From Actinomycetota bacterium (GTDB lineage: Bacteria; Actinomycetota; Actinomycetes; S36-B12): a DNA stretch of 64,000 nt. Below, piece by piece: positions 20,976-45,591 of the stretch. Under the pieces are notes generated by a model. The model did not search any database and was not told the DNA's origin. It saw only the letters and a program-made list of their open reading frames with translations. The stretch is taken from positions 62,001 to 126,000 of the forward strand of contig VGCC01000002.1 in the NCBI GenBank assembly GCA_016870195.1. The letters are read 5' to 3'. Within the stretch, counting starts at the first letter, position 1; every line of letters begins with the position of its first letter. The position numbers and the translations under genes were made by a program.

Positions 20976-22739
20976 ATGATCTTGCGCATGTCTCAGCTCT
21001 TCGTGCGCACGCTCCGCGATGATCCGGCGGATGCGGAGGTGCCGAGTCACCGGCTCCTGGTGCGAGCGGGCTACGTGCGTCGGGTTGCCCCCGGGATCTT
21101 CAGCTGGCTGCCGCTGGGCTACCGCGTGTACCGCAACGTGGAGCGGATTGTGCGCGAGGAGATGGACGCAGCCGGATTCCAGGAGGTGCATTTTCCGGCT
21201 CTGCTTCCGCGAGAGCCCTATGAGCGCACGGGGAGATGGACGGAGTATGGGGACAACCTGTTCCGTCTCCAGGACCGGAGGGGCAATGACATGTTGCTCG
21301 GTCCGACGCACGAGGAGATGTTCACCCTCATGGTGAAGGGTGAGTACTCCTCCTATAAGGACCTACCTCTGTGCATCTATCAGATCCAGACGAAGTACCG
21401 AGATGAGGCGCGTCCCCGAGCAGGGATTCTCCGGGGCCGTGAGTTCGTCATGAAGGACTCCTACTCGTTCGATGTGGACGATGAGGGTCTGGCGCGCTCC
21501 TACGCACGCCACCGGGATGCCTACATCTCGACCTTCGACCGGCTCGCGCTCGACTACATCATCGTAGGTGCGATGTCCGGGGCTATGGGGGGCTCGAAGA
21601 GCGAGGAGTTCCTCGCCCCGACCCCTGTCGGCGAAGATACGTTCGTCAAGTGCACCGTCTGTGACTATGCCGCCAACGTCGAAGCGATGCGCACCGTGGC
21701 CCCGCCAACAATCCCGCCTGCTGAGTCACCAGCATTGCACGTGGAGGAGACACCGGACACCCCCACCATCGAGACTTTGGTGGCTGTAGCCAACTCGGAG
21801 GCCCTCCGCCGGCCGGATCGGGAGTGGACGGCCGCAGACACCTTGAAGAACGTTGTCCTGATCACCACGGATGTGGAAGGGACGGAGTCACCTCTCGTCA
21901 TCGGAGTGCCCGGCGACCGCGACGTTGATATCAGACGGCTCGAGGCCGCCGTGCATCCGCTCGCTGCGCGTCCCTTCGAAGAGGCCGATTTTGCGAAATT
22001 CCCGGGGTTGGTGAAGGGATACATCGGGCCCCAAGCGCTGGGGGAGGCGCGCGGGCTCCGGTATCTGGTCGATCCCCGCGTCGTGATTGGGACCCGGTGG
22101 ATCACGGGGGCCAATCAGGTGGGGCACCATGTCTTCGACCTCGTATGCGGTCGAGATTTCACGCCTGATGGCGTCATCGATGTCGCCGAGATCGTCGGGG
22201 GTGATCCGTGCCCTGAGTGTGGGTCCGCCGTGACGATCGCTCGGGGAATCGAAATCGGACACATCTTCCAACTGGGCCGCAAGTACGCGGAAGCACTCGA
22301 TCTCGAAGTCCTGGACGAGACTGGCACGCGCATCACCGTGACGATGGGTTCCTACGGAATCGGAGTCTCTCGCGCTGTCGCGGCCATCGCCGAGCAGCAT
22401 CACGATGACAAGGGCCTGGTCTGGCCTCGCGAAGTAGCGCCCGCCGACGTCCACATCGTCGTCGCAGGCAAGGATGATGACGCCTACGAATTCGCGGACG
22501 GGCTCGCGACGGATTTGGACGACCTCGGGGTGCGCATCTTGATCGACGATCGCCGAGGTGTCTCCCCGGGTGTCAAGTTCAATGACTCGGAGTTGCTGGG
22601 AATACCGACCATCGTCGTGGTGGGTAAAGGTCTCGCCGCCGGCGTCGTCGAAGTCAAGGACAGGCGAACCGGGGATCGCACCGACGTCGCGACGTCGGAC
22701 ATCAGTGAGTACCTGCGGGGTCTGGTCCTGGCTTCATGA
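20976..22739 (+). CDS. proS: Prolyl-tRNA synthetase
   Basis: Class II aminoacyl-tRNA synthetase of 587 residues, the long bacterial form with an editing insertion. Motif 2 and neighbouring segments are visible as [12 protein letters not shown] and [26 protein letters not shown] (read in two blocks). The INS editing domain lies between about residues 220 and 390 ([19 protein letters not shown]-like region). Motif 3 is [17 protein letters not shown]. The C-terminal anticodon-binding domain contains [21 protein letters not shown]. It charges tRNA-Pro and clears mischarged Ala. The last base pairs overlap the next gene (ATGA), so the permease gene is probably translationally coupled. Confidence 0.97.
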
Positions 22740-23518
22740 TCGACGGGCTGGACCCGGCGACTCTCGCGCTCCTACTCCTCGCTGCACTCGCAGCGGGGTG
22801 GGTCGACGCAGTGACAGGTGGCGGGGGAATGCTCCAGGTTCCGTCACTCTTGCTGGCACTTCCACAAGCACCGGCGGCCGTGGCCTTGGGGACCAACAAG
22901 GTTGCAAGTGTCTTCGGCACGGCCACTGCCGCGGTCACCTATCTCCGCTCGGTACGACCCCATCTCTTGACGGCGGTGCCGATGGCGGGCGCAGCCTTCA
23001 TTGCGGCTCTGGTGGGCGCGCGAATGGCAATCCTCCTGCCGAAGGACGTCATTGAACCAATCATCGTCGTGGCACTATCCGTGGTCTGGCTCTTTCTATT
23101 GCTTCGTCCCTCGCTTGGTGTGGAGGAGGCGCTTCGGTTCCCGGCGGGCCGTCGTCACTACGTGATCGCCATCACGGCCGGTGTCGGCATCGGCTTCTAC
23201 GACGGAATGGTGGGCCCTGGCACCGGTTCATTCCTGATCATCGTGCTCGTGGCGGGTCTCGGCTACTCGTTCCTCAACGCGTCCGTGACCGCCAAGATCG
23301 TGAACCTGGGAACGAACATCGCTGCCATAATCGTGTTCGGTACAGCGGGGACCATCCTCTGGTCGGTGGGGCTCCTGATGGCTGCCGCAAACATGATCGG
23401 AGCGTTCCTGGGGGCACGCACGGCACTGAGGCGCGGAAGCAGATTCGTCCGAGTGGTGTTTCTCGCGGTCGTGGCTCTACTGATCCTGCGACTGGGTTGG
23501 GACATCGCCGTCGGGTAG
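22736..23518 (+). CDS. TauE/SafE-family membrane permease
   Basis: A 260-residue integral membrane protein with about eight hydrophobic segments and the family repeat: [19 protein letters not shown] near the N-terminus and [20 protein letters not shown] in the second half, the paired glycine-rich loops of TauE/SafE (DUF81) proteins. Members export sulfite, sulfoacetate and other small anions; the substrate here is unknown. It overlaps the proS stop by four bases. Its 3' end overlaps the convergent ferritin-like gene by 42 bases. Confidence 0.88.
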
Positions 23519-23908
23519 CGATTGAGGGAAGGCCATGCTTCGACCACCCCATCGGATTCCCGTGACCGCGCAGTCGATCGCCTGATCCACCGCCCAGGAT
23601 CTCTCGGTTCCAGACGATGCGGCGGCGGCGTCCGCGAACACCGGTACGAGCGCGTTCTCGGTGTTCGAAACAAGTGTCCGACCGTCCTCGGGGGTGGTGA
23701 GATCGCCTGCACGCCCGTACGCGGGCGGTAGGGCGGGAAGTTCACGCGGATCCGCAAGCAGGGTCTGGATTCGCGTTCGGTTCGCCGCGTGGGTGGCAGC
23801 CCGCACGAGCGCACGCCGACGTTCGCGGCCGATGAGGACGACGCTTGCGGCACGGCAGGCGTTCTCGGCAGCGTTCGTCGCCTGGAATGCCGCTTCCCAC
23901 GCGCTCAC
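23477..23908 (-). CDS. DUF4439-like ferritin-fold protein
   Basis: A mostly helical protein of 143 residues: SAWEAAFQATNAAENACRAA, RERRRALVRAATHAANRTR and a C-terminal helix AVDQAIDCAVTGIRWGG. The pattern fits the actinobacterial DUF4439 ferritin-like family, which often sits upstream of rimP. I do not see a complete carboxylate-bridged diiron site, so a metal role is not claimed. GTG at 23908 overlaps the upstream stop (GTGA), indicating coupling with the lipoprotein gene before it. Its 3' end overlaps the permease gene by 42 bases. Confidence 0.65.
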   Translation of the reverse strand: MSAWEAAFQATNAAENACRAASVVLIGRERRRALVRAATHAANRTRIQTLLADPRELPALPPAYGRAGDLTTPEDGRTLVSNTENALVPVFADAAAASSGTERSWAVDQAIDCAVTGIRWGGRSMAFPQSLPDGDVPTQSQDQ

Positions 23909-24384
23909 GAAATCTCCGAGAGAACGGTGAGTTCGAGAACGTGGGTGGCTTCCGATGCCGCGATCAGCGCCAGGAGTCGGACCCGCTCCGGTTCAGGCTC
24001 GACGGCGCATCCCTCCTGACGGTCGCGGGCAGCTCTCTCCTCGGCGTCGATGAGTTGTCGTAGCGCTTGGCGCGATGTGGGCGGTATCTGCAATGCCCCC
24101 AATGGTGCGTCCGCACGGTAGCCCAGGGCGCGCGCATGTTCGCGGTGTTGGTCCGCGATCGGCGTCAAGGGTCCCGCGAGGTCGGGGAACGCTTGGGTGA
24201 TAGCCGAGTACAGAGCGATGAGCTCCAACTCAGAGGCCACGTGTACATCCCCGGGTGCAGCAGGATCTGACTCTAGGGCTACCGGGGTCGGCGAATCCGA
24301 ACCGCAGGACGCCACCAAAGCAGCGGTACCTATCGTCCCCACGCTCACTAGGAATGCACGGCGAGAGGTCGGACGGGTCGGCAC
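23905..24384 (-). CDS. Predicted exported lipoprotein with Tat-like signal
   Basis: A 159-residue protein beginning VPTRPTSRRAFLVSVGTIG, with a twin-arginine signal and a hydrophobic core, then ALVASC as a lipobox, so it should be anchored outside the membrane. The mature region is helical (ASELELIALYSAITQAFPDL; QHREHARALGY; RQLIDAEERAARD; ATHVLELTVL). Paired with the DUF4439-like protein, it may form part of a ferritin-like envelope complex. Function is not known. GTG at 24384 is supported by AATATT six bases upstream, a weak -10 match suggesting a leaderless message that diverges from rimP. Confidence 0.65.
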   Translation of the reverse strand: MPTRPTSRRAFLVSVGTIGTAALVASCGSDSPTPVALESDPAAPGDVHVASELELIALYSAITQAFPDLAGPLTPIADQHREHARALGYRADAPLGALQIPPTSRQALRQLIDAEERAARDRQEGCAVEPEPERVRLLALIAASEATHVLELTVLSEIS

Positions 24385-24414
24385 GAGGTCAATATTCCAC
24401 CCCGTCGCGCGGGT

Positions 24415-24420
24415 TATGCT
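24415..24420 (+). promoter_or_regulatory. -10 box of the rimP-nusA-infB operon
   Basis: TATGCT, preceded by TT, lies 49 bases before the rimP ATG. This gives a leader of about 43 bases ending in GGGAGGG. It is about 20 bases from the divergent lipoprotein promoter. Confidence 0.5.
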
Positions 24421-24469
24421 CCAGGTCACAAGTTGGACCCACAACAGGATGCGCTCGACGGGAGGGCAC

Positions 24470-24937
24470 ATGTCCCCACGGGTGATGGCGATTCGCGTCC
24501 GCGTCGAGCCGGTAGTCATTGCGCGTGGCCTGGACCTTGAAGACGTACAGTTGAGTGCGGTCGGGCGCCGTGAGGTGGTCACGATCGTCGTCGATCGCGA
24601 TGGTGGTGTCGACCTCGATGTGATCGCCGAGGCAAGTGCGGATATCTCAAGTGCGCTCGATGAGGCCCCAACGTTGTTTCCTGGGGCATATGTCGTGGAA
24701 GTGACGTCCCCCGGTGTGGATCGCCCACTGGCCGAGCCTCGTCACTGGCGTCGAGCGCTCGGTCGGCTAGTGACCGTGGAGCGTGCGTCCGAGGGGTCCA
24801 TCACGGGTCGCGTCAACGCCGTGACCTCGAATGTGGCAACGCTCGCACTGCCTGACGGCACTGACGTGGACGTGGAATTCGACTCGGTTGATCACGCCCG
24901 CGTCGAGGTCGAATTCGACCGGAAGGACGCTTACTGA
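24470..24937 (+). CDS. rimP: Ribosome maturation factor RimP
   Basis: A 155-residue protein needed for 30S subunit maturation. The N-terminal alpha/beta domain shows VIARGLDLEDVQLSAVGRRE and VVTIVVDRDGGVDLDVIAEAS. The central GAYVVEVTSPGVDRPLAEPRHW is the RimP hallmark. The SH3-like C-terminal domain follows (ALGRLVTVER; GRVNAVTSNVATLALPDG). The ATG at 24470 has GGGAGGG just upstream. The stop and the nusA ATG share one base (TGATG). Confidence 0.93.
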   Translation: MSPRVMAIRVRVEPVVIARGLDLEDVQLSAVGRREVVTIVVDRDGGVDLDVIAEASADISSALDEAPTLFPGAYVVEVTSPGVDRPLAEPRHWRRALGRLVTVERASEGSITGRVNAVTSNVATLALPDGTDVDVEFDSVDHARVEVEFDRKDAY

Positions 24938-25941
24938 TGGACATCGACGTCGCAGCACTCAAATCACTGGTCCGCGAGAAGGATCTATCCCTCGATCTTG
25001 TCGTCGAGACGATCGAGGCTGCCCTCCTGGTCGCCTACCAGCGCACACCGGGTCGTGCTGAGCAGGCGCGCGTCTCCTTGGATCGCAAGAGCGGCCACGT
25101 GACTGTATGGGCAACGAAACTCGGCGACGACGGTAGCCCGATTCGAGAGTTTGATGACACTCCAAGCGACTTCGGTCGTGTCGCGGCGACGACCGCGCGG
25201 CAAGTGCTGCTGAGTCGTCTCCGCGAGGCCGAAGGGAACGCGACCCTGACGGAGTTCACTGGACGTGAAGGCGATGTCGTTTCCGGAGTCATTCAGCAGT
25301 CGAACAACCCGCGCATGGTGCGTGTCGACCTGGGCAAGGTCGAGGCGAACCTCCCCCCGGAGGAGCAGGTTCCGGGGGAGACCTACCCGCACGGTGATCG
25401 AATCAAGTGCGTCATCACGGCAGTCCGGAAGGGTTTCAAGGGACCGCAGGTGACGGTGTCGCGAACCCATCCCAATTTGGTCAAGGGTCTGTTCGCGTTG
25501 GAGGTGCCCGAGATCGCCGACGGCACGGTCGAGATCACCGCGATCGCTCGCGAGGCTGGCCATCGTTCGAAAATCGCCGTCCGATCCACCAAGAACGGGG
25601 TCAACGCCAAGGGATCGTGTATCGGCCCCATGGGGGCCCGGGTTCGACAGGTCATGTCGGAGCTCGGAGGTGAGAAGATCGACATCGTCGATCACAGCGA
25701 CGACCCGGCGGAGATGGTTGCCCACGCCCTCTCGCCCGCCCGGGTATCCGGCGTCATGATCGTGGATCGCGCTGCGAAGGCGGCACGAGTCTCAGTTCCG
25801 GACTACCAACTCTCCCTCGCCATAGGCCGAGAGGGTCAGAATGCGCGGCTCGCCGCCCGCCTCACAGGATGGCGCATCGATATCCGACCCGACTCCACGC
25901 CCGGTGGCACCCCCGACGCCGGGCAGGACACGCGGAGTTAG
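24937..25941 (+). CDS. nusA: Transcription termination/antitermination factor NusA
   Basis: A 334-residue RNA polymerase-associated factor. Order: N-terminal polymerase-binding domain (LKSLVREKDLSLDLVVETIEAALLVAY begins it; read in blocks), S1 domain (GDVVSGVIQQSNN; MVRVDLGKVEANLPPEEQ), then two KH domains (GSCIGPMGARVRQVMSELGGEKID region and LAIGREGQNARLAARLTGW). There is no acidic C-terminal repeat region, as is normal in actinobacteria. It modulates pausing, termination and rRNA antitermination. In an operon with rimP, ylxR and infB. Confidence 0.96.
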   Translation: MDIDVAALKSLVREKDLSLDLVVETIEAALLVAYQRTPGRAEQARVSLDRKSGHVTVWATKLGDDGSPIREFDDTPSDFGRVAATTARQVLLSRLREAEGNATLTEFTGREGDVVSGVIQQSNNPRMVRVDLGKVEANLPPEEQVPGETYPHGDRIKCVITAVRKGFKGPQVTVSRTHPNLVKGLFALEVPEIADGTVEITAIAREAGHRSKIAVRSTKNGVNAKGSCIGPMGARVRQVMSELGGEKIDIVDHSDDPAEMVAHALSPARVSGVMIVDRAAKAARVSVPDYQLSLAIGREGQNARLAARLTGWRIDIRPDSTPGGTPDAGQDTRS

Positions 25942-25943
25942 AC

Positions 25944-26237
25944 TTGGCGGCTGAGCGTGGTGCGGGGCCTGTGCGAACGTGCATTGGATGCCGGACCCGT
26001 GACGAGGTTGGAAATCTGATTCGAATCACCGCGCACGATGGCGTGTGCGTGGTGGAGCAGGGTCGGGGTACTCCCGGCCGTGGGGCGTACGTTCACCCGC
26101 GGGCGGAATGCCTTGATCGTGTGGAGCGCACCTCCACCCTGGCTCGGGCCCTCCGGGTGCCCGGGCAGCTGTCGATGGACGGGGTGCGCGCCGCGGTGCT
26201 TCAGGCACCGAACTCCGCGGGCAACCGTTCGCGGTGA
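25944..26237 (+). CDS. ylxR: YlxR-family RNA-binding protein (RnpM-like)
   Basis: A small basic protein of up to 97 residues with the family signature VRTCIGCRTRDEVGNLIRI near the N-terminus and TPGRGAYVHPRAECLDR in the middle. YlxR/RnpM proteins bind RNA, including RNase P in some bacteria, and are nearly always encoded between nusA and infB, as here. The start is ambiguous: TTG at 25944 follows the nusA stop by two bases, while GTG at 25971 sits directly before the conserved block. Confidence 0.88.
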   Translation: MAAERGAGPVRTCIGCRTRDEVGNLIRITAHDGVCVVEQGRGTPGRGAYVHPRAECLDRVERTSTLARALRVPGQLSMDGVRAAVLQAPNSAGNRSR

Positions 26238-26266
26238 CGGACACTTCCACCAGGGAGTAGTTGGAG

Positions 26267-26315
26267 ATGAACACCCCATGAGTGCGCGAGCATGAACGTG
26301 CAGCGCAGCCACTGA
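26267..26315 (+). other. Chain of three ATGA-linked mini-ORFs in the infB leader
   Basis: Between ylxR and infB three tiny reading frames follow one another, each starting inside the stop of the previous one: MNTP (26267-26281), MSARA (26278-26295) and MNVQRSH (26292-26315). The first has GGAG directly upstream of its ATG. Chain and hairpin together fill most of the 117-base gap. They could be translated as a coupling or attenuation device, or be chance; nothing here proves translation. Confidence 0.4.
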
Positions 26316-26316
26316 C

Positions 26317-26340
26317 GGTCCGGGGTGCATAACCCGGACC
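26317..26340 (+). other. Perfect hairpin upstream of the infB ribosome binding site
   Basis: GGTCCGGG pairs with CCCGGACC, eight perfect base pairs around GTGCATAA. It ends five bases before the AGGAGA of infB and begins two bases after the mini-ORF chain. There is no U-tract, so it is more likely a leader structure affecting infB translation or RNA processing than a strong terminator. Confidence 0.55.
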
Positions 26341-26354
26341 AAGACAGGAGAGTC

Positions 26355-28982
26355 GTGTCGAAGGTTCGGGTCTACGAGCTCGCGAAGGAGCTCGGGGTTG
26401 AGAGCAAGGACGTCCTTGCGAAGCTCCAAGAATTGGGCGAATTCGTTCGCTCTGCCTCATCGACCATTGAGGCGCCCGTTGCCCGTCGCCTGAAAGAGGC
26501 GATGCCCGCGGCCGCACCCAAGAAGGCGCCCGCGAAGAAGGCAGCTGCAACGAAGCCCGCCGCGGAGAAGCCGGCGGCCGTGGAGAAGGCCGCTGTCGCA
26601 CCCGAACCGGCCCCCGTCGCACCCGAGTCACCTCCGCAGTCACCTGCCACCCCTCCGTCGGCGCCGGACGCGCCCGTTGCCGGGCCGCGACCCGCGGGCC
26701 CTAGGCCCATGGGCCCCCGCCCCGGCAACAACCCCTTCTCCTCCGGTGGCGGGGCCGGCATGGGTCGGCCCGCGCCCCGGCCCGGCAACAACCCGTTCAG
26801 CACCGGAGCCCCGCGGCCGAGTGGCGTGCCCGGTGCCCCGCGCCCGAACCCCGGAATGATGCCGACCCGGCCCGCGCGTCCCGCCGGACCCGGTCGTGGA
26901 CCCAGCGGACCCGGTCGTGGACCCGGCGGACCCGGTCGTGGACCCGGCGGTGGACGCCCCGGCTCACCGTCGATTCCCCTGGGGGCACCCCCACAGGGCC
27001 CCGGGGCGCCCGGTGGTCGTGGCGGATTCGGCCGCGGGGGAGGCCGCGGCACCACGGCGGGTGCCTTCGGCAAGCCGGGTGGGCGTCCCTCGCGCGGCCG
27101 GAAGTCCAAGCGCGCAAAGCGCCAAGAGTTCGACAATATGGAGGCGCCCAGCCTCGCCGGTGTGCGGATTCCCCGGGGCAGCGGTGACATCGTCCGTCTG
27201 CCTCGCGGTGCATCCCTCACTGATTTCGCGGAGAAGATCGATGTATCGCCCGCCGATCTCGTCAAGGTCCTCATCCAGCTCGGGGAGATGGTGACCGCTA
27301 CGCAGTCCATCGACGACGAGACGTTGGTCCTCCTGGGTAACGAGCTGAACTACGACGTCCAGGTCGTATCCCCTGAAGACGAAGATCGCGAACTGCTCGA
27401 GTCGTTCGACCTCGAATTCGGCGAGGACGAGGGGGACTCGTCGGATTTCGTGGCGCGCTCACCGGTGGTGACCGTCATGGGCCACGTCGACCATGGCAAA
27501 ACAAAGTTGCTGGATGCCATTCGCAAGACCAACGTTGTCAGTGGCGAGGCCGGAGGCATCACCCAGCACATCGGCGCCTACCAGGCGATCGCGCACACCC
27601 CCGATGGCGAACGCTTCCTGACCTTCATCGACACACCGGGCCATGAGGCATTTACGGCCATGCGTGCTCGTGGTGCCCAGGTCACGGACATCGCAGTCCT
27701 GGTCGTGGCGGCAGACGATGGCGTCAAACCGCAGACGATCGAGGCGCTCAACCACGCGCAGGCGGCCGGCGTCCCCATCGTCGTCGCGGTCAACAAGGTG
27801 GACAAGGAGGGAGCCGACCCGGTCAAGGTCCGCTCCCAACTGACGGAATACGGACTCGTGGCCGAGGATTTCGGCGGGGACACGATGTTCGTCGACGTGT
27901 CGGCGTTGAAGGGCGGTGGGATCGAGACCTTGCTTGAAGCGGTGCTCCTCACGGCCGACGCGGCCCTTGACCTTCGGGCGAATCCGAACCAGGACGCGCA
28001 GGGCGTCGCGATCGAGGCACACCTCGACCGTGGACGTGGCCCGGTGGCCACGGTCCTGGTGCAGCGCGGCACCCTGCGACCAGGTGACTCGATCGTCGCC
28101 GGAGACGCATTCGGACGCGTGCGAGCGATGCTTGACGACGCTGGCAATCCGGTTGAGGAGGCAGGCCCCTCCACACCTGTGCAAGTTCTCGGGCTCACAT
28201 CCGTCCCAGGTGCCGGCGATTCCTTCCTCGTCGTTCCCGAGGATCGGACGGCACGCCACATCGCCCAGACTCGCCAAGCGCGCGAACGCAATGCGCTCCT
28301 GGCCAAGAACCGCGTCAAGAGATCGCTTGAGGACTTCCTGGAGTCCTTGGAGAAGGGCGATGTTGCGGAGTTGACGCTCATTCTCAAGGGCGACGTCTCA
28401 GGATCCGTCGAGGCACTCGAAGACGCGCTGACGAAGATCGATGTAGGCGCTGAGGTGTCCCTGCGCGTCATCCATCGTGGCGTTGGCGCCATCACCAAGA
28501 ACGACGTGACCCTCGCGAGTGCCTCCAAGGCCGTCATCATCGGCTTCAACGTGAGGCCCGAGGGCAAGGTGGCGGAATTCGCGTCGCACGAGGGTGTGGA
28601 CGTGTGCTACTACAGCGTGATCTACCAGGCGATTGACGAGATCGAAGCCGCTCTGAAGGGCATGCTCAAGCCCGAGTTTGAAGAGGTGCAGTTGGGCATG
28701 GCTGAAGTTCGCGAGGTCTTCAAGTCATCGAAATTCGGGACCATCGCGGGGTGTCTCGTGCAATCCGGTGAGGTGCGCAGAAACGCGAAGGCACGTGTCA
28801 TCCGTGATGGAGCGGTTGTTGCGGACAATGTATCCATTGCAACCCTTCGCCGGTTCAAGGACGACGTGACGGAGGTGAAGGAAGGGTTCGAATGCGGCAT
28901 CAACCTTGGTTCCTTCCAGGATCTCAAGGTTGACGACCAGATCGAGACCTTCGAGATGCGCGAGAAGCCACGTAAGCCATGA
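26355..28982 (+). CDS. infB: Translation initiation factor IF-2
   Basis: An 875-residue GTPase that positions initiator tRNA on the 30S subunit and promotes subunit joining. N-terminal IF2_N module ([20 protein letters not shown]), then a long low-complexity linker rich in Ala, Pro, Gly and Arg (about residues 55-265) with three GPGRGP[SG] repeats. The G domain has G1 GHVDHGKT (376-383), DTPGHEAF and NKVDK. Domains II to IV follow, including [14 protein letters not shown] at 26355 was chosen: AGGAGA lies just upstream and the protein then begins with the standard VSKVRVYEL. Upstream codons belong to the leader hairpin. The stop overlaps rbfA (ATGA). Confidence 0.97.
26886..26948 (+). repeat. 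Three 21-base tandem repeats inside infB
   Basis: Three copies of a 21-base unit starting GGACCCGGTCGTGG encode [14 protein letters not shown] and GPGRGPG in the flexible IF-2 linker. Copy number is likely to vary between strains by slippage. Confidence 0.85.
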
Positions 28983-29404
28983 GCGCAAGTGAGGCCCGGC
29001 AACGGAAGCTCGCGGAGCGGATCCAGCACATCGTCGCGGAGATGCTGGAGTCACGGGTCAAGGACCCCCGCATGGGGTTCATCACCGTGACCGACGTACG
29101 TGTCACCCCGGACCTGCGCGAGGCCTCCATCTTCTACACCGTGCTGGGATCTGCGGAGGATCAGGAGAACACGCGCGTGGCACTGGACTCGGCAACGGGC
29201 CTGTTGCGGTCGGAGGTGGGCCGCCAAACGGGAATCAAGTTCACTCCGACGCTCACATTCATCGCCGACGCAGTGCCGGAGAACGCCCGGCATGTCGAAG
29301 ACCTGTTGGCTCAGGCCGCGGCCGCGGACGCCGAGGTCCACCAGCAAGCCAGCAACGCCCGGTATGCCGGTGATGCAGATCCCTACCGCCATCCGGTTGA
29401 GTGA
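28979..29404 (+). CDS. rbfA: 30S ribosome-binding factor RbfA
   Basis: A 141-residue KH-fold protein that matures the 5' end of 16S rRNA in the 30S subunit. Visible features are [18 protein letters not shown] at the start, [19 protein letters not shown] in the middle and [21 protein letters not shown] near the end. The ATG overlaps the infB stop and the stop overlaps the truB GTG, so infB, rbfA and truB are tightly coupled. Confidence 0.95.
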
Positions 29405-30285
29405 TCGTGCAGGCACCTCGGGGATTTGCTGTTATCGACAAGCCCCCGGGAATCACCTCGCATGACGCCGTTGCGCGCGCTCGCCGGGTCCTTGGGATCC
29501 GGCGCATCGGGCACGGCGGAACCCTCGACCCCATGGCCACAGGTGTGCTCATCTTGGGTGTCGGAGATGCAACGAGGCTCCTGCAATGGGTGTCCCGCGG
29601 GGATAAGTGCTACGAAGCAACGGTGCGACTGGGGAGCTCGACATCAACCGATGATGCGGAGGGCGAGATCCTCGAGGTTGCCTCACCGGATGCCCTGAGC
29701 CACCTGACGGACGCCCTGATCGGTGCAGCCATAGCGCGATTTCATGGATCGATCATGCAGGTTCCGAGCAAGGTCTCCGCGATCAAAGTGGACGGCGTCC
29801 GGGCCTACGCCCGCGCTCGCACGGGAGAGGCATTCGAGTTGGCGCCCCGCCCAGTCACGATCTCGAGCATCGACTGGTCCGTGTCAGCCCGGATGAGCGA
29901 TCACATCGACATCCACCTGAATGTGTGCTGTTCCTCGGGGACCTACGTGCGCGCACTTGCGCGCGATATCGGAATCGCACTCGGTGTCGGAGGGCATGTG
30001 ACAGCGTTGAGACGTACCCGTGCGGGAGGTTTCACACTCGATGATGCCGTTCCGCTCGATGCACTCACAGATTCCGACCTCATCCCACTCGCGAGTGTGG
30101 CCAAGCGGGTTTTTCCTACCATCACGGTATCTCCCGAGATCGCGGTGAGTGTTCGACATGGCCGCCCGATCCCATGGCCACCGGACGTCGTGGGCACCGC
30201 GGCCTTACTGGCGCCGGATGCGTCGCTCCTCGCTGTGTGTCATGAGGTTGATGGGGCAGCCCGCTACGACTGCGTGTTTGCGTAG
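29401..30285 (+). CDS. truB: tRNA pseudouridine(55) synthase TruB
   Basis: A 294-residue enzyme that converts U55 of the tRNA T-loop to pseudouridine. The N-terminal GFAVIDKPPGITSHDAV and catalytic Asp43 in HGGTLDPMATGVL are diagnostic. KCYEATVRLGSSTSTDD and CSSGTYVRALARDIG are also typical. The GTG start overlaps the rbfA stop. Its TAG stop is reused as the first bases of the -10 box of ribF. Confidence 0.96.
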   Translation: MIVQAPRGFAVIDKPPGITSHDAVARARRVLGIRRIGHGGTLDPMATGVLILGVGDATRLLQWVSRGDKCYEATVRLGSSTSTDDAEGEILEVASPDALSHLTDALIGAAIARFHGSIMQVPSKVSAIKVDGVRAYARARTGEAFELAPRPVTISSIDWSVSARMSDHIDIHLNVCCSSGTYVRALARDIGIALGVGGHVTALRRTRAGGFTLDDAVPLDALTDSDLIPLASVAKRVFPTITVSPEIAVSVRHGRPIPWPPDVVGTAALLAPDASLLAVCHEVDGAARYDCVFA

Positions 30286-30288
30286 GCT
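30283..30288 (+). promoter_or_regulatory. -10 box, leaderless start of ribF
   Basis: TAGGCT six bases before the GTG at 30295; its TAG is the truB stop codon. Confidence 0.6.
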
Positions 30289-30294
30289 CGACGC

Positions 30295-31209
30295 GTGCCC
30301 GCCGATGAGCGCTGTGTCATCACCATGGGTGTCTTCGATGGCGTCCATCGTGGTCATCAGGCGTTGTTGCAGAAGGCCCGTGACGTTGCCGACACCTACG
30401 GGCTCCCGCTGGTTGTCCTGACCTTCGATCCGCATCCAGCGTCGGTCTTGAGGCCCGGGTTCGAACCGGCACGCGTGATGTCCGTGCCACGGCGTTGCGA
30501 GGAGCTCAAGGCTCATGGCGCGGACTGGGTCGAGGTGGTCCCCTTCGACTCAACCGTGTCCACCATGACAGAGGAGGAGTTCGCCCGCGAATACTTCACG
30601 CGCCGAAACAGGGCCGCTGCAGTCGTCGTGGGTGACAACCTTCGATTTGGCCGAGATGCGGCGGGGGATGTCGCGCGACTCAAGAAACTGGGCGAAGCCC
30701 TCGGCTTCGAGGGTGTGGGCGTGGAGTTGTCACGAGATGCGGCGCCGTGGTCATCCACGCGGGTGCGCGCGGCACTCTCGGCAGGCGACATCGCCGGTGC
30801 GCGCACGATCCTCGGGAGGGATCCCGAGATCGAGGGTGTCGTGGTGAGCGGAGATCGGCGCGGGCGTGAACTCGGCTATCCGACCGCCAACGTTCACGCC
30901 GATTCCGGAGTCGCCCTTCCCCCCGAGGGGGTGTATGCCGGGTTTCTCGTAGCGGGAGGGGAGCGCCTCCCCGCCGCGATATCCGTGGGAACGAACCCGC
31001 AGTTCGGGGGAGTGGAGATGCGCGTCGAGGCCTATGTGCTCGACCGCGATGACCTCGATCTCTACGGGGGTCGTGTCCGCCTGGAGTTCCGCTCGCGCCT
31101 GCGGGACCAAGCCACGTTCCCCACGCTTCAGGACTATCTCGCCCAAATGGAGCGCGATGTGGAGTCGGTGCGGCGCGCGCTGGCCGAAGCCCCTCGGTCC
31201 GCGCCGTGA
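30295..31209 (+). CDS. ribF: Bifunctional riboflavin kinase / FAD synthetase
   Basis: A 304-residue enzyme making FMN and then FAD. The N-terminal nucleotidyltransferase domain shows MGVFDGVHRGHQALL, LTFDPHPASVL, VVVGDNLRFGRDAAGD and the SSTRVR motif. The C-terminal kinase domain shows GRELGYPTANVH, GVYAGFLV and SVGTNPQFGG. Flanked by truB and rpsO, the usual bacterial order. The GTG start is fixed by the -10 box. Confidence 0.95.
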   Translation: MPADERCVITMGVFDGVHRGHQALLQKARDVADTYGLPLVVLTFDPHPASVLRPGFEPARVMSVPRRCEELKAHGADWVEVVPFDSTVSTMTEEEFAREYFTRRNRAAAVVVGDNLRFGRDAAGDVARLKKLGEALGFEGVGVELSRDAAPWSSTRVRAALSAGDIAGARTILGRDPEIEGVVVSGDRRGRELGYPTANVHADSGVALPPEGVYAGFLVAGGERLPAAISVGTNPQFGGVEMRVEAYVLDRDDLDLYGGRVRLEFRSRLRDQATFPTLQDYLAQMERDVESVRRALAEAPRSAP

Positions 31210-44220: not shown

Positions 44221-45591
44221 GTGAATCAGGAATCCCGGCGCGTCGCGCTCGTCACGCTCGGTTGTGCGCGCAACGAAGTCGACAGTGAGGAACTTGCCGC
44301 GCGCCTTCAGAGTGGAGGCTGGTCGCTGGCGGAATCACCGGAGGATTCCGACGTCGTTGTCGTCAACACCTGCGGGTTCATCGAGGCAGCGAAGAAGGAC
44401 TCCATCGACACGTTGCTGGCCCTCGCGGACTCGGGTCGGACCGTCGTGGCTGCAGGATGCATGGCGGAGCGATACGGACGGGAGTTGGCCGAGGCCCTCC
44501 CCGAAGCCGCAGCGATCATCGGATTCGATTCCTACGCCACCATCGATCGTGTGCTCGACGATGTCAGAGCGGGCTCACCCATCAGGGCTCACGAGCCCGT
44601 GGACCGCCGCACGCTCATTCCGTTGGCGCCGGTCGAGCGCACCCGGGGGTGGGCCCCTCCAATGCTGCGACACCGCCTCGCCGGCAGTCCCGTCGCACCG
44701 CTCAAGTTGGCATCGGGGTGCGATCGTCGATGTTCCTTCTGCGCCATCCCGCGATTCCGCGGTGCCTTCGTGTCTCGCACGCCCGAGGAGATCATCCAGG
44801 AAGCGACCTGGTTGGCGGAGCAGGGCGTACGTGAGATCAACCTGGTCAGTGAAAACTCGACGTCATACGGGAAGGATCTGGGAGATCTCCGGCTATTGGA
44901 GAGTCTCCTGCCCCGCATCGCGGACGCCGCGCCGGGAGTCCGTCTCCGGGTCGCGTACTTGCAGCCTGCGGAGATGCGTCCCGGACTGGTCGAGGTGATC
45001 GCACAACACCCGTCCATCGCCAGCTACTTCGATCTTTCTTTCCAGCACGCGAGTCCAGATGTGTTGCGTCGGATGCGTCGCTTTGGTGGCTCTGCACCCT
45101 TCCTGGAGCTCGTGGACCAGATCCGCTCCCTCGCACCGCAGGCCGGAATCCGGAGCAACGTCATCGTAGGTTTCCCGGGCGAATCAGAGGGAGACCTCGC
45201 GACGTTGACGGAATTCTTGGAGCGGGCACAGCTCGATGCTGTCGGCGTCTTCGGCTACAGCGATGAGGACCAAACCGAGGCGGAACAGCTGTCCGGCAAG
45301 ATCGAGCAGCGCGAGATCGACCGACGCGTAGCCGCGGTTGCCTCCCTCGCCGAGGAACTCATGACCCAACGCGCCTTGGCTCGCCACGGGGAGGACGCTG
45401 AAGTCCTCGTGGAGTCCGTGGATGGTGCAGGTCGGGATTGGCGCGCGGAGGGACGTGCGGCGCACCAGGGTCCAGACGACAGCTCCACGGAGATTCGGGG
45501 CGACGGAACTCCGCCGCGCATCGGCGATCTTCTGACGGGCGTCGTCGACGATGCGGACGGTGTCGACCTGATCGCGAGAGTCATGGCGTGA
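44221..45591 (+). CDS. rimO: Ribosomal protein S12 methylthiotransferase RimO
   Basis: A 456-residue radical-SAM methylthiotransferase that modifies an aspartate of S12. The N-terminal MTTase domain holds three cluster cysteines ([34 protein letters not shown]). The radical SAM motif CDRRCSFC is at 167-174, and [13 protein letters not shown] and a C-terminal TRAM domain follow. [14 protein letters not shown] is the RimO-type segment that separates it from MiaB. It overlaps the frame of pgsA at its stop. Confidence 0.94.

Follow-up and report, generated by a model that had tools for sequence, protein, structure and literature searches.

Translational attenuators of the erm type select between two hairpins around the gene start according to the position of a ribosome on the leader ORF, and they depend on a drug-stalled, sequence-specific peptide. 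In yeast GCN4 and animal ATF4, several uORFs let the downstream gene read initiation capacity (eIF2, Met-tRNAi), and E. coli infC, which encodes IF3, is controlled by its AUU start codon. Here, we describe a leader in front of infB in Actinomycetes that is composed of chained mini-ORFs (ORF1 to ORF3) and usually a hairpin (H1). Mutually exclusive hairpins as in the erm attenuators are conceivable here: H1 is well supported and a rival helix (H2) moderately so, and a simulation of Shine-Dalgarno (SD) accessibility does not support the exchange. In contrast to erm, several short ORFs are passed and the leader peptides vary, i.e., there is no conserved stalling peptide (110 distinct ORF3 peptides in 115 spacers). 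A likeness to GCN4 and ATF4 would lie in the fact that infB encodes the bacterial fMet-tRNA factor IF2; both of these systems differ by their scanning eukaryotic ribosomes and long spacers and have no homology with the infB leader. For infC as well as for the infB leader, the control concerns an initiation-factor gene, with that of infC sitting in the start codon itself.

For gene pairs that overlap (ATGA, TGATG), termination-reinitiation has been well documented (Huber et al. 2019, PMC6728339). The infB leader shows the same stop/start overlaps, and the downstream starts of the described pairs depend on arriving ribosomes. In contrast, the coupled units of Huber et al. are genes, while those of the infB leader are mostly 4-7 codons long and chained, and the last of them ends before the gene, without an overlap and usually with the hairpin in between. 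Shell et al. (2015, PMC4633059) describe an excess of small ORFs with RTGA coupling in mycobacteria, that is, in the same bacterial class, with the same RTGA tetramer and with small ORFs before annotated genes. However, the mycobacterial coupled ORF overlaps the annotated start, whereas the infB chain stops 20-66 nt short of infB; the main text of that paper contains no mention of infB. For uPPE2-PPE2 of M. tuberculosis, coupling is described as mainly due to reinitiation (PMC11260477). As proposed for our case, the pair combines a translated uORF and an AUGA overlap with a regulatory RNA structure beside it, and the translation of the uORF controls the next gene; it differs by its single uORF, which overlaps the gene directly, and by its B12 riboswitch.

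Control of the operon as a whole has been reported. The rimP-leader, located before rimP, is predicted to attenuate transcription of the rimP-nusA-infB operon (PMC2965389), and NusA exerts feedback on the same operon (PMC4448216). Both resemble the infB leader in that they concern an operon that also yields IF2. The rimP-leader acts on whole-operon transcription via a terminator, while the infB leader sits before infB itself, shows no T run and carries mini-ORFs. The account of infB cold-shock control in E. coli given in PMC6511841 deals with promoters, and a mini-ORF leader is not part of it. For M. abscessus, PMC10727445 lists a WhiB7 binding site upstream of infB; the mention of infB in PMC7157823 has no bearing here.

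In full-text searches of open-access papers, whole-operon control of rimP-nusA-infB came up, and no infB mini-ORF leader was described. As far as these searches and Rfam go, the leader is undescribed, which is in accordance with a first-pass annotation of this DNA that knew of no infB leader of such kind. A leader of infB's own would be new next to the control described in these sources, which concerns the whole operon. The novelty would be translational-leader control via a chain of coupled mini-ORFs before an initiation-factor gene. The element precedes a gene that encodes a core translation factor, recurs across the class, including Streptomyces and Arthrobacter, and offers a natural, compact system to measure reinitiation. 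Judged by sequence comparison, the leader is real and class-wide and its anatomy well supported, while its working is what we infer.

Anatomy of the leader in the window

The locus was studied within the window, i.e., the whole 64-kb stretch of DNA that was analysed. The identities of nusA, located upstream, ylxR and infB are backed by domain matches. Table 1 lists the features of the leader and its surroundings.

Table 1. Features of the infB leader and its neighbours in the window (feature, position, strand, basis and remarks)
ylxR	25944..26237, stop 26235-26237	+	TTG assumed start; PF04296 YlxR, E 5.3e-16; upstream neighbour, outside the leader
AGGGAG, probable SD site of mini-ORF 1	26252..26257	+	sequence; 9 nt 5' of the ATG
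Mini-ORF 1, MNTP (ATG AAC ACC CCA TGA)	26267..26281	+	sequence; TGA stop within ATGA
Mini-ORF 2, MSARA (ATG AGT GCG CGA GCA TGA)	26278..26295	+	sequence; ATGA overlap at both ends
Mini-ORF 3, MNVQRSH (ATG AAC GTG CAG CGC AGC CAC TGA)	26292..26315	+	sequence; last of the chain; stop 1 nt 5' of the hairpin
Hairpin H1, 5' (up) arm GGTCCGGG	26317..26324	+	fold; compensatory changes in 7/7 pairs, 87 sequences
Hairpin H1, 3' (middle) arm CCCGGACC; doubles as 5' arm of rival helix H2	26333..26340	+	fold, pair counts
AGGAG, SD site of infB	26346..26350	+	sequence
infB, translation initiation factor IF-2, GTG start	26355..28982	+	IF2_N, GTP_EFTU, IF-2 domains
Rival helix H2, 3' arm GGTTCGGG, within infB codons 3-6	26363..26370	+	fold, complementarity vs recoding, moderate pair counts

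The first-pass annotation had reported MNTP, MSARA and MNVQRSH as ATGA-chained mini-ORFs at 26267-26315. Direct reading of the window sequence gives the same coordinates, and both junctions are ATGA. The GGAG that was named as preceding mini-ORF 1 is present (26263-26266) but abuts the ATG, such that the AGGGAG of Table 1 is better placed. The perfect 8-bp hairpin announced just before the infB SD site was found as well. It consists of eight perfect pairs with an 8-nt loop and starts one base past the last stop, where a gap of two bases had been given.

The window segment from the last stop onward folds better than 195/200 shuffles, and its fold shows H1. The whole spacer folds better than 200/200 shuffles, with a lowest-energy fold that contains H2. 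In this long fold of the spacer, ORF1 codons (26272-26277) pair with the hairpin region (26322-26327) and displace H1, so that ribosomes early in the chain could act opposite to one at its end.

Within 25900-26500 of the window, we found no intrinsic terminator-like site, no T run after the hairpin and no sigma-70-type promoter. A comparison with Rfam at E<=1 was negative around the leader, both in window positions 22000-31000 and in four further loci (L097, L072, L045, L005); the two Rfam matches listed sit elsewhere than the leader and are under their gathering scores.

On both strands of the window, a single further three-member chain with ORFs of up to 12 codons was detected, which is of GTGA type and located at 44564-44618 on the minus strand. 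Throughout the 2.1-Mb genome, 2/25 matches of a three-ATGA pattern are in frame, namely the infB leader and one on contig C34 (3628-3665, corresponding to 628-665 of L286). The latter encodes MNLTDG and MNLTVG and consists of a near-perfect repeat, which is placed 3'-terminally in an ORF of Rieske-like appearance (by eye); it is probably a coincidence. No second copy of the leader was found in the own genome, where the next-best match of the covariance model introduced below scores 18.1 bits compared to 96.3.

Conservation of the chain and signs of its translation

We sampled infB upstream regions from the window's family and order (none of them of the window's own genus), from genomes across the class and from 80 named infB loci. 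The named loci are the best 80 of 356 confirmed ones and belong mostly to Streptomyces, besides Arthrobacter, Paenarthrobacter, Brachybacterium, Dermabacter, Microtetraspora and others. From 237 loci, 235 provided an infB start (L037 and L148 gave none); these comprise 222 distinct spacers, of which 118 are under 80% identical over 110 nt (ungapped). Chains were counted with a strict rule (NTGA overlaps only, ATG first) and a relaxed rule (next start at most 3 bases past the stop). Shuffles for the chain rules preserve dinucleotides, while those used for folding z-scores, H2 complementarity and folded distance preserve base counts only.

With the strict rule, at least three chained mini-ORFs are present in 103/118 spacers compared to 1.0% of the dinucleotide shuffles. 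The relaxed rule finds such chains in 115/118 spacers and in 215/222 distinct spacers, as opposed to 138/11800 dinucleotide shuffles (1.2%), 0/106 stretches within infB and 1/40 spacers from other classes. Most of the exceptions (6/7 among the 222 and 2/3 among the 118 spacers) have an ORF1 with a GTG start behind AAGGAG. When this GTG-start family (2 spacers) is counted, at least three coupled mini-ORFs precede infB in 117/118 divergent spacers, a number that does not reflect independent events since the spacers share descent. The sole true exception, L231 (genome G272, family f27), stems from a reduced genome with one mini-ORF remaining before infB.

A covariance model based on alignment A2 (41 sequences of 57 eligible) detects the element in 360/393 genomes of the class and 117/123 genera, training genomes counted in. 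It misses 33 genomes. Among the 20 listed misses, nine belong to family f9, for which a divergent chain (ATGA..GTGA..ATGA) and the hairpin are still visible in the fetched loci, and seven are assemblies of 150-880 contigs (families f14, f16, f18, f21 and f23). For the other classes of the phylum sample, weak matches of 21.7-25.4 bits occur in 6/137 genomes. Five of them are on a contig that differs from that of the infB match, while G350, the sixth genome, lacks a listed infB match. We thus dismissed all six as chance, given that none is found at the genome's listed infB match. Reading the infB upstream regions of other classes directly, no chain of three was seen in 39/40; the remaining one (L273) has a chain of different make-up, which we take as incidental.

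The leader precedes infB also where no YlxR match was found, e.g., in genomes G058, G121 and G156, and is thus tied to infB rather than to ylxR. In most spacers the chain covers about 50 nt. The infB start is GTG, a weaker start codon than ATG, in 117/118 divergent Actinomycete spacers.

Between successive ATGA motifs, distances of 11, 14 or 17 nt prevail. That is, their spacing is 2 mod 3, which is required for the stop of one ORF to overlap the following start and which holds for 186/202 spacings (67 expected). Over all 222 distinct spacers, 367/445 spacings are 2 mod 3; 59 of the remaining 78 are at 12 nt and by eye mostly due to an in-frame ATG AAG in Streptomyces. The reverse strand, as a control, shows 2/10 pairs with 2 mod 3, which are too few pairs to weigh.

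Within the 115 spacers chosen by the relaxed rule, the 230 junctions split into 204 ATGA, 12 GTGA, 5 TGATG, 3 TAATG and 6 with a 2-nt gap. Stop and start are within 2 nt of each other for 230/230 junctions, given that the rule allowed for gaps of up to 3. As judged from these 115 spacers, the letters of the junctions change while the coupling is kept.

We also compared the pairing with the anti-SD sequence in the same spacers. The mean energy is -4.6 kcal/mol for ORF1, -2.6 for ORF2 and -1.8 for ORF3, compared to -2.8 for random upstream sites and -7.0 for infB. A pairing of -5 kcal/mol or better is reached by 48%, 11% and 1% of ORF1, ORF2 and ORF3, by 24% of the random upstream sites and by 100% of the infB starts, i.e., 52% of the spacers have an ORF1 without it. 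The idea that the ATGAG of one start serves as SD site for the next was rejected, since the pairing of ORF2 and ORF3 is no better than that of random upstream sites.

ORF1 has 4 codons in 82/115 spacers and ORF2 has 5 codons in 85/115. The number of distinct peptides increases from 60 (ORF1) and 78 (ORF2) to 110 (ORF3), with ORF1 encoding MSTR or MSAR in 43/115 spacers. For ORF3, the interior shows a high base entropy while start and stop are fixed; given this entropy and the 110 distinct peptides, we rejected a functional ORF3 peptide. The first-pass annotation had expected a functional chain to show conserved ATGA steps with variable peptides among close relatives. This is what we observe, and well beyond near relatives: the three coupled mini-ORFs recur, their junctions survive changes of letters, and the third peptide varies. 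The frames look translated, and based on these comparisons we are nearly certain that the leader is functional and translated.

Hairpin H1, rival helix H2 and the distance to infB

From the last stop to the infB SD site, the median folding z-score is -3.0, with values below -2 in 96/118 spacers. Base pairs were assessed in alignment A1, which holds 87/118 spacers after removal of 16 by a distance filter and 15 by eye due to another hairpin sequence type (L150-L153, L171-L173, L179, L182, L191, L193, L195, L203, L231, L237). For H1, two-sided changes are found in 7/7 pairs (41 cells), bearing in mind that the omission by eye flatters the pair figures of both H1 and H2. None of 500 shuffles was as high on any of five measures, and no slid version of the helix reached these counts. 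RNAalifold, applied to a MAFFT alignment of 102 sequences, returned no structure, which we think is caused by alignment gaps. The first-pass annotation had argued that ribosomes moving down the chain would reach the base of the hairpin. A hairpin that is conserved with compensatory changes directly past the last stop is consistent with this view.

Distances were evaluated for the 113/118 spacers whose stem has 5 or more pairs. Here, the hairpin follows the last stop with a median of 1 nt, and the last stop is 33-66 nt away from infB (20-66 nt in 118/118 spacers). This total distance tracks the hairpin length with r 0.93, while shuffled segments reach at most 0.69. Once the hairpin is folded out, 16 nt separate the last stop from infB (sd 2.5, range 11-23), compared to an sd of 7.0 (minimum 6.0) for shuffled segments. 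This near-constant folded distance hints more strongly than any other feature at a joint action of the last stop and the infB start. It fits a plain coupling as well as a switch.

Family f16 (L136, L158) represents a natural experiment on the role of H1: the chain is retained, H1 is absent and the last stop is found 20-21 nt before the infB GTG. Given this family with a chain but no hairpin, a switch can not be universal.

The middle arm of H1, CCCGGACC, is also complementary to infB codons 3-6, and the resulting helix H2 would enclose both the SD site and the GTG of infB. H2 complementarity, the unpaired state of the SD site and opening energies were computed for 116/118 spacers, i.e., all but the hairpin-less L136 and L158. 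At rank 0.05, the complementarity exceeds that of synonymous infB recodings in 43/116 lineages (5.8 expected) and that of shuffled leaders in 58/116. When infB starts are swapped between lineages, the native pair is within the best 5% in 17/116 only. Lineages with a differing infB start have a matching arm: GCTCAGGG with CCCTGAGC in L029, GGTCCGTGT with ACACGGACC in L187 and GGTCCGAG with CTCGGACC in L188.

In the 87 aligned sequences, H2 is 84.3% paired with double changes in 4/9 pairs. Its covariation score and its 16 double-change cells exceed all 500 shuffles, while its pair and pair-type counts are equalled or surpassed by 76 and 48 of the 500 shuffles, respectively. Sliding H2 by -2, -1 and +1 columns results in 24, 16 and 19 double-change cells, respectively, compared to 16 in place. 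The best covarying pair involves the wobble base of an Arg codon, with 11 double changes and 21/87 unpaired. Comparison of the leaders brings out the coupled frames, the compensatory hairpin and the near-constant folded distance. The second complementarity emerges less firmly, with a support that is moderate and weaker than that of H1.

We further modelled the effect of ribosomes on the leader. With a ribosome on the last stop, opening the infB start costs 1.2 kcal/mol more when averaged over the 116 lineages (up by more than 1 kcal/mol in 60/116, down by more than 1 in 16/116), while for seven earlier positions the mean change is at most +0.2. Placing a ribosome on the upstream arm lowers the SD accessibility by more than 0.1 in 5 and raises it in 29 of the 116 lineages; the accessibility of the start codon goes down in 14 and up in 20. 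The simulation of the unpaired SD site thus gives no support for a switch and that of the opening energy supports it weakly, where both rest on folding parameters and an assumed footprint.

Proposed mechanism and alternative explanations

In our preferred reading, the infB leader would be a cis-acting, translated relay of termination and reinitiation that controls IF2 synthesis. Ribosomes would load at the SD site of mini-ORF 1. ORF2 and ORF3 have no SD sites, and their starts coincide with the previous stop or are at most two bases away from it, such that they would be passed by termination-reinitiation. The last stop would set the ribosome at the foot of H1, from where the infB start is about 16 nt off when H1 is folded out. 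The middle arm of H1 would have two possible partners, namely the upstream arm (H1, infB start open) and infB codons 3-6 (H2, SD site and GTG enclosed). With a ribosome on the last stop, the upstream arm would be hidden and H2 favoured, i.e., inhibition by finishing ribosomes is our best guess for the direction of the control.

Normal initiation needs IF2 and fMet-tRNA. We assume that reinitiation at each of the three serial starts needs them as well, such that the number of finishing ribosomes would report the initiation capacity. The result would be a homeostatic control of IF2: many finishing ribosomes would lead to less infB translation and few to more. That the leader senses translation, as the first-pass annotation had it, is, like the translation of the leader, the switching between H1 and H2, its direction and the role of IF2 as signal, what we infer from the anatomy.

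As a whole, we consider the translated cis relay with H1/H2 exchange and homeostatic IF2 control the best explanation, with a probability of about 0.65. A control of infB translation in cis by the leader, taken for itself, is quite likely. More tentative, and in our eyes slightly short of an even chance, is that the leader provides negative feedback on initiation capacity. Feedback by IF2 is an attractive idea given three serial starts, each presumably with IF2. It would make the leader a meter of initiation, where serial reinitiation over three mini-ORFs multiplies the dependence on IF2/fMet-tRNA and the finishing ribosome closes the infB start via H1/H2; we regard this as a possibility to which we lean somewhat less than to its opposite. 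If true, IF2 would govern its own synthesis throughout Actinomycetes, i.e., a GCN4-like logic fed back on the factor.

The main rival explanation does without a switch and feedback: the chain would bring ribosomes to the foot of H1 for reinitiation at infB about 16 nt on and thereby raise infB translation. The near-constant folded distance is in accordance with such a delivery, as are the junctions, which are tight throughout, the position of the last stop 20-21 nt from infB in the hairpin-less family f16 and the SD accessibility simulation, which is against a switch. For one mycobacterial uORF, translation is reported to be essential for the downstream gene (PMC11260477). However, infB has a strong SD site of its own in 115/115 spacers, such that delivered ribosomes are not obviously needed. 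Furthermore, delivery explains neither the match of the hairpin arm to infB codons 3-6 nor the retention of three serial ORFs in place of a single one overlapping the infB start. We consider it rather unlikely.

Ribosomes on the chain might instead cover the gap between ylxR and infB and guard the mRNA from Rho termination or decay, with infB initiation unaffected. The chain indeed sits in an operon gap that is otherwise untranslated, but it spans only about 50 nt in most spacers, keeps a near-constant folded distance from infB and is retained in genomes without a YlxR match. Mere cover would also not require overlap junctions that are preserved through letter changes, so that we judge such upkeep improbable. 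Even less credit can be given to an element where the ATGA repeats are recognised as sequence by an RNA or protein without being translated. While the strong conservation of ATGA and its flanking bases would agree with that, the spacings vary by lineage yet keep the frame (186/202), and lost ATGA motifs are replaced by TGATG, TAATG, GTGA or 2-nt gaps, which are equivalent to a ribosome only. A stalling or bioactive leader peptide, as known from drug-induced attenuators, is just as hard to believe: the frequent MSTR or MSAR of ORF1 (43/115), a likeness partly due to the fixed ATGA and NNATGA letters, is opposed by the 110 distinct peptides and the high internal base entropy of ORF3, which is the one located at the hairpin. 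Chance, finally, can point to the other in-frame ATGA chain on contig C34, but position and frame of the infB chain are conserved in 117/118 divergent spacers. Given this conservation, the shuffle, infB-internal and other-class controls and the class-wide model matches, we reject a chance arrangement.

For the preferred exchange of H1 and H2, which would exclude ribosomes from the infB start, a further observation was made in L050, L190, L201 and L207. In the folds of these loci, the loop of H1 appears by eye to be complementary to the infB SD region, which would be an alternative route to the same exclusion.
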